A DNA stretch of 64,000 bases from a virus: positions 62,001 through 126,000 of the IMG/VR virus record IMGVR_UViG_3300042544_000912; one strand, written 5' to 3'. The notes under the pieces were generated by a model. That model was not told the DNA's origin. It ran no database searches and saw only the letters and a list, made by a program, of their open reading frames with translations. The position numbers were made by a program, and so were the translations under genes. Within the stretch, counting starts at the first letter, position 1. Every line of letters begins with the position of its first letter. This document shows, piece after piece, positions 3,739-34,931 of the stretch.

Positions 3739-5427
3739 ATGGCTACAGTAATTCAAATTAAGAGTTCGTCAACATCGAACGCACCTGCTACCACTGATCT
3801 TATAGAAGCAGAAATGGCATATGCAGAAGACCGTGCTGGCAATGGTGCCGCCGCGGTTCTTTATATTTCGTCACTAAACTCTGACAATACAACCGAAGCT
3901 ATCCATAAAATTGGTGGTAAGTATTATACAGATAAGGTTGATGCGCGTCTCGTTGATGCCACATCATCTGTTGGCGCGAAGGCAGTATTCGCAGAAGGTA
4001 CAGCAAACGGCTCACATAAGGTGACACTGAAGGCGGCCGACACCGTTGCCGCAGATGTTACTTTTACTCTACCGGCGGCAGATGGTTCTGCTAACCAAGT
4101 TCTCGTAACTAACGGTTCTGGCGTTCTGTCATTTGCTGCTCCTGCATCATCATCGATGACGCTTGCTGGCGACACAGGCACTGACACATTCAATACAGGT
4201 GAAACACTAACTTTCACTGGTGGCACAGGTATCGCGTCAACTGTTACAAATAATACAGTAACTTTCGATATTGATTCGACTGTTGCTACCTTAACTGGCA
4301 CACAGACACTAACAAACAAAACTCTAACTTCGCCTACCATGACAGCTCCTGCTCTTGGTACTCCTGCATCTGGTACACTAACTAACGCAACAGGCCTACC
4401 AGTTTCAACAGGTATTTCTGGATTAGGAACTAACGTAGCGACTGCACTGGCTGTTGCTGTGGGTTCTTCTGGCGCGTTTGTTACCAATGGTGGTGCTCTA
4501 GGTACTCCTTCTTCTGGCACACTGACCAACGCAACCGGTCTACCAGTTGCAACAGGTATTTCTGGTCTTGGTACAAATGTTGCAACTTTCCTTGCAACTC
4601 CATCTTCTGCAAATCTTCTTGCGGCGCTGTCCGATGAAACGGGCACCGGTGTTAACGTATTTGGTACTGCTCCAACTTTCACTACATCGATTGATGGTGG
4701 TGCTACGTTTGCCGCGTTTGCTTCTTCAACTGCGCTGACAATTGGTTATGGAAGCACCGCTGCTTCGACAACCAATATCTCAACTGGCGCTACTGCAACT
4801 GGCACAACTAAGACGCTGAATCTTGCTACTGGCGGTGCTACTGGTTCTACTACGAACGTTAACATCGGTTCTGCAAACGGTGGTACTACTACAATCAACA
4901 AGGACCTAGTGGTTTCTGGTGATCTTACGGTCAACGGAACTACAACAACCGTTAACTCGACGACCATCTCTGTTGATGATAAAAACATCGAACTTGGTTC
5001 TGTAGCATCACCAACAAATACTACTGCCGACGGTGGTGGTATTACACTAAAGGGTGCGACAGATAAGACTTTCAACTGGGTAAATGCTACTGCGGCATGG
5101 ACTTCTTCAGAAGATCTCAACCTACTTAGTGGCAAGGTTTATGAAATCAACGGTACTACTGTTCTTTCTTCTTCTGCGCTTGGTTCAGGTGTTACTGGTT
5201 CGTCACTAACAAGCGTTGGTACTATCGCAACTGGTGTTTGGAATGGTACTGCGGTTACTGTTCCTTATGGTGGTACTGGTGCAACAACATTCACTTCGAA
5301 TGGTATTCTATACGGAAATGGCACAGGTGCTCTACAAGCAACTGCGGCTGGCACAAACGGCTACTTCCTGTATTCGAATAGCGGTACACCTGCTTGGACA
5401 AATACAATTAGCGGTGGAACATACTGA
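3739..5427 (+). CDS. Tail fibre protein with [10 protein letters not shown]-type repeats
   Basis: A 562-residue, Thr/Ser/Gly/Ala-rich protein. Residues 1-75 form a distinct N-terminal domain ([10 protein letters not shown] start). It is followed by repeats such as [20 protein letters not shown] and [13 protein letters not shown], then a block near residues 390-510 that is repeated in the next large fibre, and finally an ISGGTY terminus. Such repeats are typical of trimeric tail fibres of T4-like phages and carry out host recognition. The RBS AAGGAAGG precedes the ATG. The composition is strongly biased to ACT, GGT and GCT codons, which produces long spurious antisense reading frames. Confidence 0.8.
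4905..5280 (+). repeat. Intragenomic fibre repeat, copy A
   Basis: About 375 bases encoding [13 protein letters not shown] through [33 protein letters not shown] and [16 protein letters not shown]. The second fibre carries the same block at about 6210-6590 with only scattered substitutions. It is a potential site of homologous recombination between the two fibre genes. Confidence 0.8.
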
Positions 5428-5456
5428 TAAATAAAGGGAGAGGGTTTCCCTCTCCC
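5426..5456 (+). promoter_or_regulatory. Late-promoter variant followed by a perfect hairpin
   Basis: GATAAATA (5426-5433, one mismatch to TATAAATA) overlaps the TGA stop of the fibre gene. Two bases later comes a perfect inverted repeat: a 9-bp GC-rich stem at 5436-5444 and 5448-5456 with a TTT loop. There is no T-run after the hairpin, so it may be an mRNA stabiliser or processing structure rather than an intrinsic terminator. Confidence 0.5.
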
Positions 5457-5473
5457 AACTTGTGAGGATTATC

Positions 5474-5677
5474 ATGGATCAGACTAAATTTATTAATACA
5501 TATATCGCAAATCTCGCGGAGCAAACTAAAAGTGCTACGCTTGAGATTATTATGCTGAAAACGCATTTGGCAATTGCAAATGAGACTATCGCTGAATTGA
5601 CGACCAAACTTGAAGCACAAGCAACAGAAATTAAACAGGATGAGGCAGACGTTCTTCCTCTATCTGATTACAAATAA
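5474..5677 (+). CDS. Small coiled-coil protein between tail fibre genes
   Basis: A 67-residue protein, almost entirely helical with heptad-like spacing (SATLEIIMLKTHLAIANETIA). The ATG at 5474 has GAGG seven bases upstream; a GTG 12 bases earlier would place the start inside the RBS. It lies between two large fibre genes in the same orientation, so it could be a fibre assembly factor or a coiled-coil accessory. No family is recognised. Confidence 0.6.
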   Translation: MDQTKFINTYIANLAEQTKSATLEIIMLKTHLAIANETIAELTTKLEAQATEIKQDEADVLPLSDYK

Positions 5678-5686
5678 GGTAGTGAA

Positions 5687-7825
5687 ATGGCAACAAGAGT
5701 TCAATTCAGAAGAGGTACTACGGCAGAGCATAGCACTTTCACGGGTGCAGAAGGTGAAATAACCGTAAACACAACAAAAGATACTCTTGTTGTTCACGAT
5801 GGCTCGACTGCTGGTGGTTTCGAAATAGTAAGTTTGGCCGCGTCCCAAACATTAACTAATAAAACATTAACTTCTCCAACATTCACTGCACCGGTTCTGG
5901 GAACACCTGCTAGTGGTACCTTAACTAACTGCACAGGATTACCTGTTGCATCTGGCGTTTCTGGTTTAGGAACTGGCGTTGCTACATTTCTGGCCACGCC
6001 ATCTTCCGCAAACTTAATCTCTGCGATTACGGATGAGACTGGTTCTGGCGCACTGGTATTTGGAACAAGTCCTGCTATCACCACATCTATTACTACGCCA
6101 AGCACAACTTTTGCACTAGTAAATACTACGGCGACAACAGTAAACTTTGCTGGTGCGGCGACTGCGGTTACTATTGGTGCTTCAACCGGCACTACAACAG
6201 TAAATAATAGTTTGGTGGTCACTGGCGATCTTACGATCAATGGAACTACGAATACTATCAATTCAACAACAATTACTGTTGATGATAAGAACATCGAACT
6301 TGGTTCGGTAGCATCACCAACTAACGTCACAGCAGATGGTGGTGGTATTACTCTAAGGGGTACTACAGATAAAACGTTTAACTGGGTGAGTGCAACGGCC
6401 GCATGGACTTCATCGGAAGACTTAAATCTTCTTACGGGTAAAGTCTATGAAATCAACGGCACTACCGTTCTTTCTGCCACGGCATTGGGGTCGGGCGTTA
6501 CTGGTTCTTCACTGACTTCTGTTGGCACGATTGGAACGGGTGTTTGGCAGGGAACTTTGGTAAGTTCTACCTATGGTGGAACAGGCGTAAATAATGGTGG
6601 TAGAACCATTACATTAAATACGGGCAACTTAACAATTGCTGCACAGGCAGGTGGCTCATCGCTTACTGCACCATCTACTGGTACAATTGCAACTCTTGCT
6701 GGCACAGAAACATTTACTAATAAAACTCTTACCCTTCCAATTATTGATAACATCAAATTAGGTTATACTGCAACTGCCACCGCAGCTGGTACAACTACAT
6801 TAACTGCATCTAGCAATCGTCAGCAATTATTTACTGGTTCGACTACACAAACTGTTGTTCTTCCAGTAACCAGCACATTAGTCGCTGGTATGGGTTATGA
6901 TATCGAAAATAACTCAACAGGTAACTTAACAGTGAATTCTTCTGGTGGTAATTTAGTAGCAACAGTTGTTCCAGGAACCAATCTTCACGTAGTTTGTATT
7001 GGTACTACTCTAACTACTGCGGCAGACTGGGACGCAGAATTTACAGGATTTGGTACGCTTACAGGTACGGGTTCAGTTGTTCTAGCAACATCACCTACAC
7101 TAACGACACCAAATATTGGGGCTGCTACTGGTACATCTCTAAGTGTTTCTGGGTCCTTAACTTCCACTGTTGCAACTGGCACTGCTCCGTTGGTAGTCAC
7201 TTCTACTACTAAAGTTACTAACCTAAACGCAGAACTAGTAGATGGTTACCATGCAACTGAAACCAACACGGCATCAAATATTGTTGTCAGAGACTCGACA
7301 CGCAAAATCAATCACAGCGGTGCCGTTCTTTCAGGTTCTACGTCAGGAACAACTACGGTAGTTGCAACTGCAATTGCAGGAACTACTACTTTAACTTTAC
7401 CTGCCGCCACAGATACGCTGGTTGGTAAAGCAACTACCGATACTCTTACAAATAAAACTCTCACTACACCGGCAATCAATGGTGCAACTGTGGGTGTTTC
7501 TGCGACTGTTACAGCTGGCACTAATGCTCAGGGTCAAGGCGCACTGACATCCGATTATAACGTAATAACCACCGCGGCATCTGCTCCATCTGGAGTAACT
7601 CTTCCGACTGCTACTACTGGACGTAGAATTGTTATCGTAAATAAGGGCGCAAATATCATCAATATCTATCCTGCAACTAGTGGATATATTGATGCGCTTG
7701 CAATCAACACCGCAACTTCGCTTGCACCAAACGGAACAATGGAATTGATGGCATCATCTACAACTCAATGGTATTCTATTGACCGACTTGCAATTTACAA
7801 TGCAGCGGGAACATTGTTGAACTAA
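5687..7825 (+). CDS. Large tail fibre protein with Mtd-type N-terminal domain
   Basis: A 712-residue fibre. The N-terminus (MATRVQFRRGTTAEHSTFTG, then GEITVNTTKDTLVVHDGST) matches the short beta domain found at the start of many phage adhesins (major tropism determinant N-terminal type). The middle contains [20 protein letters not shown] repeats and, near residues 175-300, the block shared with the upstream fibre. The C-terminal part (LNAELVDGYHATETNTASN, then a region ending YNAAGTLLN) is a typical fibre tip. It is likely to determine host binding. It ends one base before the next gene. Confidence 0.82.
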   Translation: MATRVQFRRGTTAEHSTFTGAEGEITVNTTKDTLVVHDGSTAGGFEIVSLAASQTLTNKTLTSPTFTAPVLGTPASGTLTNCTGLPVASGVSGLGTGVATFLATPSSANLISAITDETGSGALVFGTSPAITTSITTPSTTFALVNTTATTVNFAGAATAVTIGASTGTTTVNNSLVVTGDLTINGTTNTINSTTITVDDKNIELGSVASPTNVTADGGGITLRGTTDKTFNWVSATAAWTSSEDLNLLTGKVYEINGTTVLSATALGSGVTGSSLTSVGTIGTGVWQGTLVSSTYGGTGVNNGGRTITLNTGNLTIAAQAGGSSLTAPSTGTIATLAGTETFTNKTLTLPIIDNIKLGYTATATAAGTTTLTASSNRQQLFTGSTTQTVVLPVTSTLVAGMGYDIENNSTGNLTVNSSGGNLVATVVPGTNLHVVCIGTTLTTAADWDAEFTGFGTLTGTGSVVLATSPTLTTPNIGAATGTSLSVSGSLTSTVATGTAPLVVTSTTKVTNLNAELVDGYHATETNTASNIVVRDSTRKINHSGAVLSGSTSGTTTVVATAIAGTTTLTLPAATDTLVGKATTDTLTNKTLTTPAINGATVGVSATVTAGTNAQGQGALTSDYNVITTAASAPSGVTLPTATTGRRIVIVNKGANIINIYPATSGYIDALAINTATSLAPNGTMELMASSTTQWYSIDRLAIYNAAGTLLN
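6210..6590 (+). repeat. Intragenomic fibre repeat, copy B
   Basis: Second copy of the block at 4905-5280. At protein level the two copies share long identical stretches such as [15 protein letters not shown] and [13 protein letters not shown]. The DNA differs mainly at third codon positions, showing an older duplication under protein-level selection. Confidence 0.8.
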
Positions 7826-27809: not shown

Positions 27810-29521
27810 TTATTTTCAACACAATTCGCTGGAAGAACTTTCTTTCAACTGGCAACCAGTTCACAGAAATCAAGCTAGACCGTTCACCTAACACTCTGAT
27901 TGTCGGTGAGAATGGTGGCGGAAAGTCAACAATGCTTGACGCATTGTGCTTTAGTCTTTTTGGTAAGCCGTTTCGTAACATCAACAAGCCTCAGTTGGTA
28001 AACTCCATCAACAAGAAGCAACTTCTGGTTGAGGTGGAATTCCAGTCGGGTCGCAAGTCGTATAAGATTGTGCGCGGCATCAAGCCTAATCTTTTTGAAA
28101 TCTATGTTGACGGTGACCTGATTAACCAAGACGCCGCCGCTCGTGACTATCAGAAGTATCTCGAAGAATCTATTCTCAAGTTGAACTACAAGTCCTTCAC
28201 ACAGATTGTCATTCTGGGTTCAGCATCGTTTACGCCATTCATGCAGTTGCCATCTGGCACACGCCGTGAGATTATCGAAGACCTACTTGACATTCAAATC
28301 TTTACCACTATGAACGTGGTGCTTAGGGATAAGATGAATGAGTTGAAGGATCGATTGCAAGACGCCGACGGTAAGTTGGAAGTTTTGAAGCAGAAGGCCT
28401 CAATTCAGAAAGAATATGTTGACACCCTAGAAGCGAACCGAGAGAAGAGAGTCGATGAAATATTGGAGCGTATTGAGGCTGGTGAGGGGAAGATATCAAG
28501 TCTTACCAATCTCGCCAATGATGTGGCGGGGCAGAAAGTTTCGATTGAAGAAGCCCAGAAAAATCTGGGAGACCTTGCAACCAAGCAAAAGAAACTTGAC
28601 TCCTTCAAAACCAAATTTTCCACTCAACTCCGCGATCTTCAAAAAGAGGTTGCTTTCTACGAGGAAACAGATGAGTGTCCGACGTGCCAACAGGGGATTG
28701 CTCACGACCATAAAGAAACTATCGTCTCATCAAGACAAGAGAAAATTCAAGAACTCTCTTCTGGAATGGAGAAACTCCAAGAAGAATTTACAAAACTTGA
28801 AGACCTCATTGCGGAAAATGAGATTCTTTCCGAACAAATTTCTGGGTTGAACGCGGAGATTATCACGCACAACAATGAAATTATTGTTCAACAAAGACTG
28901 ATACAAGCCCTTAATTTGGAACTGGCTGACATTACATCTAAAACTGGTGATATAGATACTGAGAAAAATAAGTTGAAAACTTATGCTAAGGAAGTTCTGA
29001 CTCAGAACGAAGAAAAGGCCAAGTTGAATGAAGAAAAGCATTACCTGGATGCTGTCTCCACTCTCCTCAAGGACACTGGTATTAAGACTAAGATTATTCG
29101 GCAGTATCTTCCAGTTATCAATAAACTGGTGAATAAATATCTACAAGCAATGGACTTCTTCGTGCAGTTTAATCTGGATGAAAAGTTCGATGAAACTATT
29201 AAGTCTCGCCATCGTGATGATTTTAGTTACGCATCATTCTCGGAAGGAGAAAAGCAACGCATCGACCTTGCTCTTCTGTTTACATGGCGGACAATCGCTA
29301 AGATGAAGAACAGTGTGGCTACCAATCTTCTAATCTTGGACGAGGTATTCGATAGTTCGCTTGATAATAATGGTACCGATTATGTTATGTCTCTGCTAGA
29401 TACAATTGGCGAAGATACAAATCTATTCGTTATCAGTCATAAGGGCGACCAACTCTTTGATAAGTTTCGCAGTCTTATTAAGTTTGAAAAGAAAAATAAC
29501 TATAGTGAAATGGTGATATAA
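27806..29521 (+). CDS. gp46: gp46 recombination ATPase subunit (Rad50/SbcC-like)
   Basis: 571 residues (T4: 560). Walker A VGENGGGKST near residue 33, a zinc hook CPTC near 290 in the middle of the coiled coil, the signature FSEGEKQRIDLA and Walker B NLLILDEVFDSS near the C-terminus. It pairs with gp47. Its stop overlaps the deformylase ATG. Confidence 0.95.
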   Translation: MIIFNTIRWKNFLSTGNQFTEIKLDRSPNTLIVGENGGGKSTMLDALCFSLFGKPFRNINKPQLVNSINKKQLLVEVEFQSGRKSYKIVRGIKPNLFEIYVDGDLINQDAAARDYQKYLEESILKLNYKSFTQIVILGSASFTPFMQLPSGTRREIIEDLLDIQIFTTMNVVLRDKMNELKDRLQDADGKLEVLKQKASIQKEYVDTLEANREKRVDEILERIEAGEGKISSLTNLANDVAGQKVSIEEAQKNLGDLATKQKKLDSFKTKFSTQLRDLQKEVAFYEETDECPTCQQGIAHDHKETIVSSRQEKIQELSSGMEKLQEEFTKLEDLIAENEILSEQISGLNAEIITHNNEIIVQQRLIQALNLELADITSKTGDIDTEKNKLKTYAKEVLTQNEEKAKLNEEKHYLDAVSTLLKDTGIKTKIIRQYLPVINKLVNKYLQAMDFFVQFNLDEKFDETIKSRHRDDFSYASFSEGEKQRIDLALLFTWRTIAKMKNSVATNLLILDEVFDSSLDNNGTDYVMSLLDTIGEDTNLFVISHKGDQLFDKFRSLIKFEKKNNYSEMVI

Positions 29522-30036
29522 TGGAATTAATTAAGTTTACTGACCCAACACTTCGGGTAGAGCCAACAGCTTTTGAATTTGGCAAAGAAGATGCTAAAGA
29601 TTTGGTAGATAGACTATGGACAAAATGTCGAGAACTTCGAGGTTTAGGTTTATCTGCAAATCAGGTAGGAATTGATGCCAAAGTTTTTGTGATGGGTTCA
29701 GATGATGATAATCGTAAGAATATTTTTAACCCGAAAATTGTTTCCTCGTCGGAAGAAACTAATCTTGCTAAAGAAGGTTGTCTAAGTTATCCTGGTCTGT
29801 GGCTGTCTATCAAACGCCCAGCTACCATCACTGCTTCATATCAGAATGTGGAGGGTGAATATATAGTAGAAGAATTTACGGGATTGCCCGCTAGAATCTT
29901 TCAACATGAATATGATCATATGCTTGGATTGAATTTCTCTGACCATGCTTCTGAAATGAAAATGAAGATGGCTATGAAGTCACTAGAAAAACGAGCAAAA
30001 AAGTATATTAAAAAATATGTCCAAAACAACCTCTGA
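29521..30036 (+). CDS. def: Peptide deformylase
   Basis: 171 residues. All three family motifs are present: GLGLSANQVG (41-50), EGCLSYPG with metal ligand Cys87, and QHEYDH with His129, Glu130 and His133. It removes N-formyl from new proteins; phage versions probably speed processing of phage-made proteins. The last residues (KYVQNNL) lie in a 37-base sequence that recurs after the next gene, evidence of a local rearrangement. Confidence 0.93.
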   Translation: MELIKFTDPTLRVEPTAFEFGKEDAKDLVDRLWTKCRELRGLGLSANQVGIDAKVFVMGSDDDNRKNIFNPKIVSSSEETNLAKEGCLSYPGLWLSIKRPATITASYQNVEGEYIVEEFTGLPARIFQHEYDHMLGLNFSDHASEMKMKMAMKSLEKRAKKYIKKYVQNNL

Positions 30037-30039
30037 ATT
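30003..30039 (+). repeat. Direct repeat flanking the oxygenase gene, left copy
   Basis: 37 bases that match 30557-30593 at 33 positions. This copy encodes the deformylase C-terminus. It also contains an 11-codon remnant frame from ATG 30017 reading MSKTTSEF, which mirrors the start MSNTTYDF of the gene after the right copy. Confidence 0.85.
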
Positions 30040-30060
30040 TATAGTTGATTAATTATTTTT

Positions 30061-30534
30061 ATGTCTATACGATTATTCCATCTTACTTTGCCAGAAAATT
30101 TCGTTGATAATGTTTTAGCATTGCGTGGTATAGCCAAGTCTGTTAAACGAAGTAATAAAGGTGGATGGCAAAGTCACCGGTGCAATAGAAAAACTTATTC
30201 CTGGGCAGAATCAGTTATAGATAATGTTCAAACTGTAGCCGATGTTACTGGAGATATAACTTGCTGGTATAATATCAATACGGATAGTGATTATAATGAG
30301 TGGCACCATCACGATAGGGGTGACACAGATGAGATGTGTGCAGTCCTTTATCTCCAAGTTCCAGAAAATGCTGGTCATTTTGAGTATGAGATTGAAAAAG
30401 AAATCTTCCAGATTAAACCATATGCTGGGTTGTTATTATTATTTCCTGATGATTTGATGCATCGTGTTTTACCGAACGAAGGTGATGGCGAAAGAGTCTC
30501 CATGGCTTTTAATTTTTGGAAAATGTTGAAATGA
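30061..30534 (+). CDS. 2-oxoglutarate/Fe(II)-dependent oxygenase
   Basis: 157 residues with a double-stranded beta-helix pattern. The iron site is H83-x-D85 in WHHHDRGDTD and His134 in DLMHRVLPNE; the 2OG-binding Arg is probably R145 in GERVSMAFNFW. Short 2OG-Fe oxygenases of this kind are frequent in T4-like phages, with unknown substrates (hydroxylation of protein or base is possible). The gene has no clear SD sequence, is AT-rich, and is bracketed by a 37-base direct repeat, so it looks like an inserted cassette. Confidence 0.82.
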   Translation: MSIRLFHLTLPENFVDNVLALRGIAKSVKRSNKGGWQSHRCNRKTYSWAESVIDNVQTVADVTGDITCWYNINTDSDYNEWHHHDRGDTDEMCAVLYLQVPENAGHFEYEIEKEIFQIKPYAGLLLLFPDDLMHRVLPNEGDGERVSMAFNFWKMLK

Positions 30535-30556
30535 ATATATTTTATCCCCACGAAAG

Positions 30557-30593
30557 GTATATTAGAAAATATGTCCAACACAACCTATGATTT
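30557..30593 (+). repeat. Direct repeat flanking the oxygenase gene, right copy
   Basis: Read in the deformylase frame, this copy still encodes RYIRKYVQHNL-stop, a close match to the true deformylase end KYIKKYVQNNL-stop. It also carries the ATG of the next gene. Both functions of the ancestral junction are therefore visible in each copy. Confidence 0.85.
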
Positions 30594-30945
30594 CGGATTT
30601 ACATTCGAAGACCCCTCCGAAACTGTAATTCATGTCCAAGAGCCGTATAGTTCTCAGACGATAGATACAGGCGACCTAAAAGATGAGATTATGGCCAAGC
30701 TCTATGACCTTGAAGCCAGACTTCTTAATGTAGACCAGTCAACTCTCATTGCAGAACACAAGAGACTTGTGGAAATGGAAGTTGCAGAAAAATTGAAGCA
30801 GGTAGAAGACTTAATTCTACCTTTAATGTATAACCTGATGAAAAATCCTGAAAAGGAATACATCCACTGGCCGAATAGGACACCCATAATTGATAACCAA
30901 ATTGAAAAGATCACCGCAATCACACGATACTATGAACGAGTTTGA
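30571..30945 (+). CDS. Conserved T4-like hypothetical protein
   Basis: 124 residues: a variable N-terminus (SNTTYDFGFTFEDPSE), a central helix (ALIAEHK-like region LIAEHKRLVEMEVAEKLKQV) and a C-terminal YIHWPNRTPIIDNQIEKITA motif. The HWPNR-P-I-I-D pattern recurs in hypothetical proteins of other T4-like phages, from memory. The 5-prime end lies in the right copy of the direct repeat. It overlaps the ClpP-like gene by 14 bases. Confidence 0.6.
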   Translation: MSNTTYDFGFTFEDPSETVIHVQEPYSSQTIDTGDLKDEIMAKLYDLEARLLNVDQSTLIAEHKRLVEMEVAEKLKQVEDLILPLMYNLMKNPEKEYIHWPNRTPIIDNQIEKITAITRYYERV

Positions 30946-31535: not shown

Positions 31536-31564
31536 TTGACATTTCCTTGCGAATCGAGTAGTAT
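31536..31564 (+). promoter_or_regulatory. Sigma70-like promoter with CGAATCG spacer element (HAD gene)
   Basis: TTGACA, 17-base spacer containing GCGAATCGAG, TAGTAT. The -10 ends six bases before the ATG, so the predicted transcription start falls on or next to the start codon and the mRNA is probably leaderless. Confidence 0.75.
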
Positions 31565-31570
31565 ATAAAC

Positions 31571-32176
31571 ATGATTAGTTTTAAAGAGTTTATAAGTGAG
31601 TCGCAAGACGGTGCCGGATTAACTATCTGGGACATTGATGAAACTCTATTTCGCACAACTGCCCGCGTCCATATCATCAAAGATGGTAAGATTATCAAGA
31701 CGTTAGGTAACAAGCAATACAATACATATAATTTACAGCCGGGTGAGTCCTTCGACTTTAGCGAGTTTAGGGACGCCCGGCATTTTCAATCTACCAGCGA
31801 ACCAATCGCAAGAGCGATTCGCAAACTGATTGCAATGCACAAGAACATCAAGGCCAAGGGTAGCAAGATGGTTGTTATCACAGCCCGCTCCGACTTTGAT
31901 GACCGTGATATTTTTCTAGATACATTTCGTAAGCAAGGCATTGATATCGATGATATCCATGTCCATCGTGCTGGCAATCTTGGCGCCATGCCCTCTGCGG
32001 CTGCTAAGAAAATCTATATCAAACAATACCTTGACACTGGTAAATATACTCGCGCCCGTCTCTTTGATGACGCGGTGTCCAATCTCCAGATGTTCAAGGA
32101 CTTAGCGAATGAATACCCTAATGTGAAGTTTGAGCCGTTCTTGGCTCACGAAGATGGAACAATGACTCGTTTTTAA
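31571..32176 (+). CDS. HAD-family phosphatase with capsid-targeting-like N-terminus
   Basis: 201 residues. HAD motif I is D21-I-D23-E-T-L, motif II is VVITARSDFDD and the late acidic motif is RLFDDAVSN. The HAD domain resembles phosphatase domains related to polynucleotide 3-prime phosphatases, so a nucleic-acid or nucleotide substrate is possible. Residues 1-10 (MISFKEFISE, followed by S) match the form of T4 internal-protein capsid-targeting tags cut by gp21 after (L/I)xE. It has its own promoter and no SD. Confidence 0.8.
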   Translation: MISFKEFISESQDGAGLTIWDIDETLFRTTARVHIIKDGKIIKTLGNKQYNTYNLQPGESFDFSEFRDARHFQSTSEPIARAIRKLIAMHKNIKAKGSKMVVITARSDFDDRDIFLDTFRKQGIDIDDIHVHRAGNLGAMPSAAAKKIYIKQYLDTGKYTRARLFDDAVSNLQMFKDLANEYPNVKFEPFLAHEDGTMTRF

Positions 32177-32589: not shown

Positions 32590-32643
32590 AAGAATCGCTT
32601 GACATTTGGTCGCGAATCGACTATAGTAAATAATGTGATTGAT
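32590..32643 (+). repeat. 54-base promoter repeat, left copy (before the VWA gene)
   Basis: Contains TTGACA at 32599-32604, a 17-base spacer with GTCGCGAATCGAC, and TATAGT at 32622-32627, then AATAATGTGATTGAT. It is identical to 34878-34931 at 52 of 54 positions. It acts as the promoter of the VWA gene with a leader of about 30 bases. Confidence 0.85.
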
Positions 32644-34879: not shown

Positions 34880-34931
34880 GAATCACTTGACATTTGGTCG
34901 CGAATCGACTATAGTGAATAATGTGATTGAT
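34878..34931 (+). repeat. 54-base promoter repeat, right copy (before the AAA gene)
   Basis: TTGACA at 34887-34892, TATAGT at 34910-34915, spacer 17. The first bases overlap the VWA stop codon. It gives the AAA gene the same regulation as its partner and also forms a direct repeat that brackets the VWA gene exactly. Confidence 0.85.

Follow-up and report, generated by a model that had tools for sequence, protein, structure and literature searches.

A predicted 2OG-Fe(II) oxygenase gene at the def/downstream gene overlap of a T4-like water phage: a probable single insertion that duplicated the overlap

In a T4-like water phage, an oxygenase gene lies between def and the gene that follows it and is bracketed by two copies of the junction of these two genes, which raises the question of how it came to be there. 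The window analyzed here is a stretch of 64,000 nucleotides, representing bases 62001-126000 of a virus record of 130,898 bases; the genes and repeat copies at the def junction described below lie on its plus strand. The upstream flanking gene, def (29521..30036), is an open reading frame encoding a peptide deformylase (PF01327, 129.5 bits). The inserted gene (30061..30534), which is missing from empty sites, is followed by an open reading frame encoding an HWPNR protein (30571..30945), for which zero matches were found in Pfam or PHROGs. The product of the inserted gene matches PF13759 at 57 bits (cut-off 27) and phrog_81 at 1e-22, and its residues H82, H84, H134 and R145 are invariant across 11 homologs; these residues are presumably the metal and 2OG ligands of the 2OG-Fe(II) oxygenase family. 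By family (PF13759 / phrog_81), the inserted gene is thus predicted to encode a 2OG-Fe(II) oxygenase. Located 5' of def are genes for a phosphoesterase-like protein and a gp46-like protein. The latter shares 51% identity with its counterpart in Methylophilales phage Melnitz, the nearest among named phages by this protein, and in Melnitz a peptide deformylase gene is found close behind the gp46-like gene, with one small gene between them.

The direct repeat around the oxygenase gene, described in the earlier note as 33 of 37 identical bases with a remnant of the downstream gene on the left and its real start plus the def frame on the right, was confirmed at 30003-30039 and 30557-30593, including both reading frames. 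Extended by the repeat tool, the pair covers 29999-30039 and 30553-30593, with 36/41 bases identical at a spacing of 554. The left copy (29999..30039) forms the end of def and has a C-to-A change common to carriers; reading of the sequence from this copy onward gives an 11-codon remnant of the downstream gene's start (30017..30052, MSKTTSEFIVD-stop), which is of equal length in all carrier haplotypes. In the right copy (30553..30593), where the downstream gene truly begins, the def frame gives RYIRKYVQHNL-stop and closes at 30590, having entered the downstream gene by 20 nt. When the 64-kb window was scanned for pairs of 30 bases at most 4 kb apart with at least 26 matches, ten pairs were found in all, including the junction pair, while the reversed sequence yielded zero pairs with even 24 matches; the match between the junction copies exceeds chance. 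The other pairs are made up of a promoter-like 30-mer that recurs exactly (32598/34886) and of internal repeats at about 4.3-6.4 kb, the latter spaced 1306 nt apart in 4350-6476 and also 144 nt apart near 4350-4560, with at least 26/30 matches. The junction structure is not an assembly artefact because 18 further contigs spanning the site have the same structure.

Further analysis of relatives covered 80 IMG/VR contigs that carry the downstream gene, with one locus each. In 60 of these 80 contigs, def runs directly into the downstream gene through one junction copy, without the oxygenase gene; 57 of these empty junctions have a spacing of -20, and three a spacing of -17 with def one codon longer. 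Another 18 contigs, as well as the window, carry the oxygenase gene with an identical 554-nt insertion, and two are fragments with the oxygenase gene. Among all loci, def mostly overlaps the downstream gene by 20 nt and in a few cases by 14 or 11 nt; distant relatives show overlaps of 4-5 nt or short spacers. Close empty relatives have a single copy of AAAAAGGTATATTAGAAAATATGTCCAACACAACCTATGATTTCGG, whereas in all carriers the insertion is equally long and the left copy shows the CCAAAACAA change, so that a single insertion event is indicated. A DNA search of the phage collection returned zero matches. The earlier note had proposed that def once directly overlapped the downstream gene and that the oxygenase gene entered with duplication of this junction, and had suggested searching relatives for a junction without it, its presence in all of them being the outcome that would speak against insertion. 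The 60 oxygenase-free junctions with one repeat copy bear out the former overlap and support insertion, and the finding that the occupied contigs all represent one 554-nt insertion supports entry with duplication.

Homologs of the oxygenase were also found away from the def site, at 13 further loci (59-81% identity) where they are part of a different gene cassette. In this donor-type cassette, the oxygenase gene follows a gene for a small membrane-like protein and is itself followed, in most loci, by a MNIFYLH-/MNIFYLHED-type gene (phrog_624 in locus L181). These nearest relatives of the oxygenase outside the def site belong to another aquatic phage group, and the closest donor-type oxygenase is about 80% identical in protein. 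Past the oxygenase stop, the window reads ATATATTTTATCCCCACGAA, and L181 and L182 read ATATATTTTATCTCCACGAA at the same place. A donor remnant at 30532..30554 consists of the oxygenase stop and the opening codons of the gene that comes next in the donor (22/23 to L181; 19/21 in a wider comparison); from the stop codon onward, the window matches the donor at 22/23 positions and then at 10/37. Random 21-mers of donor loci reached 15 matches in about 1 of 10,000 draws, compared with 19 at the expected position. Identity to the recipient begins at the right breakpoint (62/63 to an empty relative), where only AA is shared with the donor. The 22/23 donor match and the sharp switch over this 2-base microhomology thus establish the donor type and the right breakpoint, but not the individual donor phage. 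A def match was sought in five donor records and none was found, although these records may be fragments. The window genome has its own MNIF-type homolog elsewhere, with a different start.

On the left side of the insert, the recipient match extends through the def stop. For the bases after this stop, two insecure alignments exist, one to the downstream gene that needs a 6-nt gap and a weak one to the end of the gene upstream of the oxygenase in the donor. The 21 bases that separate the left copy from the oxygenase start (30040..30060) are filler without a significant match to donor or recipient; a donor source for them was rejected, as the match was not significant in shuffles. The left breakpoint lies somewhere in 30036-30060.

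Taken as a history, these comparisons make it very probable that one illegitimate recombination event placed the 2OG-Fe(II) oxygenase gene of another aquatic phage group at the 20-nt overlap of def and the downstream gene, and that the gene then spread by homologous recombination. A replication or recombination end, through template switch or strand invasion, would have left the recipient near the def stop and copied the oxygenase gene together with the beginning of the gene behind it in the donor (23 bases counted from the oxygenase stop on). Re-entry into a recipient genome some 37 bp before the exit point would then have left the overlap present twice. Recipient sequence after the right breakpoint does begin upstream of the downstream gene's start, and the overlap therefore exists twice. 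Survivors would be biased to such a duplication since only duplication leaves both overlapping genes whole, and later spread among diverged relatives would have proceeded by homologous recombination in the flanks.

Two junction copies around cargo would likewise result if the junction, or def itself, had been doubled in tandem and the oxygenase gene had later replaced or entered the extra copy. T4-like phages recombine actively, which favors such an order of events, but a doubled junction without cargo was not found among the loci examined, and sequence of the donor's neighboring gene directly adjoins the right copy, with no more def sequence upstream of it; duplication before insertion is therefore considered unlikely. 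Direct repeats flanking an insert could also represent the long target-site duplication of a transposon or homing-type element. This explanation is already contradicted and has hardly any probability left, because only the oxygenase gene lies between the copies, with no recombinase of its own or defined element ends, because the insert's right end is a fragment of the donor's neighboring gene, and because the donor homologs are found in a conserved cassette without such repeats.

The oxygenase gene could, by comparison, have been ancestral at the site and lost from the empty loci by recombination between the repeats, and some losses may indeed have happened, as loci L031-L034 are empty with carrier-like flanks on both sides. 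As a general explanation, ancestral presence is largely contradicted and extremely improbable: empty junctions fill diverged lineages, the donor remnant marks an arrival, and among carriers the oxygenase gene has a lower dS than def. Between distinct carrier lineages, dS was 0.13-0.17 for the oxygenase gene, 0.19-0.81 for def and 0.18-0.53 for the downstream gene (alignable groups), with only a weak contrast in the pair L017-L023 (oxygenase 0.14 vs def 0.19). In trees of the gp46-like gene, def, the downstream gene and clpP, carriers do not form one clade, and 3-4 changes are needed. Divergence is lowest in the later part of the oxygenase gene and the junctions, and is low too in parts of the flanking genes; the dS contrast is a better argument than low repeat divergence, because the junction of empty loci is also well conserved.

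The low oxygenase dS relative to def and the scattering of carriers in the flanking-gene trees argue for spread of the cassette by recombination, so that one insertion, followed by movement among diverged phages, is the most likely history. The earlier note's single event is thus retained, with the amendment that the cassette later moved between phage lineages by recombination. With dN/dS of 0.15-0.31 between distinct carrier lineages, the oxygenase cassette seems to have stayed under purifying selection. Over most of def and in the downstream gene, carriers are the closest relatives of the empty loci L031-L034, whose junction is the product expected from a crossover between the two copies of L024. 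Cargo loss through the repeats is a possible origin of these loci; replacement by an empty allele, or these phages being the background that the cassette entered, would fit equally well.

At the right copy, the 23 donor bases and the def tail together form a chimeric 19-codon mini-ORF (30531..30590; MNIFYPHE from the donor and RYIRKYVQHNL from def), which, as read from the sequence, overlaps the oxygenase stop and, by 20 nt, the downstream gene. Therefore, the def-frame reading of this copy given in the earlier note stands, but as part of a mini-ORF to which the insertion contributed the donor portion. No carrier haplotype interrupts the mini-ORF, not even one with a 3-nt deletion, and a check for selection found few changes among these haplotypes. 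In carriers, the order of oxygenase stop, mini-ORF and downstream gene reproduces the old overlap, suggesting that retention of the junction preserves the former geometry of translation, in which the ribosome would stop at the same TGA within the downstream gene. RNA structure at either repeat copy was no better than in shuffles. It is conceivable, if rather doubtful, that the junction copies make the oxygenase gene a reversible cassette, which recombination would remove exactly with restoration of the def overlap (L031-L034 being such losses), and that the mini-ORF serves as a leader relaying translation from the oxygenase gene to the downstream gene.

This insertion exemplifies a known process in well-resolved form. 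The designation as moron-like in the earlier note holds only loosely. As in the morons (more-DNA) of tailed phages, a foreign gene was found between two genes that are adjacent in relatives, and its source differs from that of the flanking genes. Unlike morons, it lies in a T4-like replication-gene neighborhood, the overlap of its flanking genes is duplicated, and no promoter or terminator of its own was found; counts were at chance level, with no plus-strand terminator-like site in 29400-30945. In T4-like cyanophages, 2OG-Fe(II) oxygenases are numerous and patchily distributed, and mobile gene cassettes have been proposed (PMC3037559); here, by comparison, donor type, empty site and one breakpoint can be given at base level, and the resident phage has Melnitz as its nearest named phage by the gp46-like protein. 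Illegitimate and homeologous recombination have both been proposed as sources of phage mosaicism (PMC2327257). The right breakpoint with only a 2-nt match resembles the former, and the later spread is as homologous exchange predicts, although that work deals with the Red system and lambdoid phages and the evidence here is purely comparative. T4-family phages show deletions with direct repeats on either side (PMC5449768), the route proposed for cargo loss, which is here only suggested, by L031-L034. How lytic phages gain genes is generally deduced from end states; here, the empty site, a donor-cassette relative, one breakpoint and the later spread are all readable at this locus.

The neighboring junction between the gp46-like gene and def (29518-29524, a 1-nt overlap) is empty in the window. 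In many relatives (L006, L016-L023, L038-L042, L048-L050, L056-L057, L061-L062 and L070-L072), it carries genes for a sulfotransferase (PF03567), two kinds of methyltransferase-like protein or a radical SAM protein, and this stretch is thus a cargo hotspot. Compared with that of L018, the L017 sulfotransferase gene is shorter by 32 nt, has a shifted N-terminal frame and looks broken. No comparable duplication was seen at this junction in the relatives with cargo, as expected if a long overlap forces duplication. The case suggests a simple rule, namely that an insertion into a long gene overlap is viable only if the overlap is duplicated, and this rule could be searched for in other compact genomes. 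A description of overlap duplication as a footprint of phage gene insertion was not found in a limited literature search, with most subscription journals outside it.

No other junction-duplicating insertions were recognized in the window or the fetched loci, where the remaining repeats are mostly promoter-like 30-mers. The exact 30-base repeat CTTGACATTTGGTCGCGAATCGACTATAGT, at 32598-32627 and 34886-34915, resembles a sigma-70 promoter (TTGACA, 17 nt, TATAGT). A variant of it is found at 31536-31564, upstream of the gene at 31571, and this promoter-like repeat is present in many relatives.
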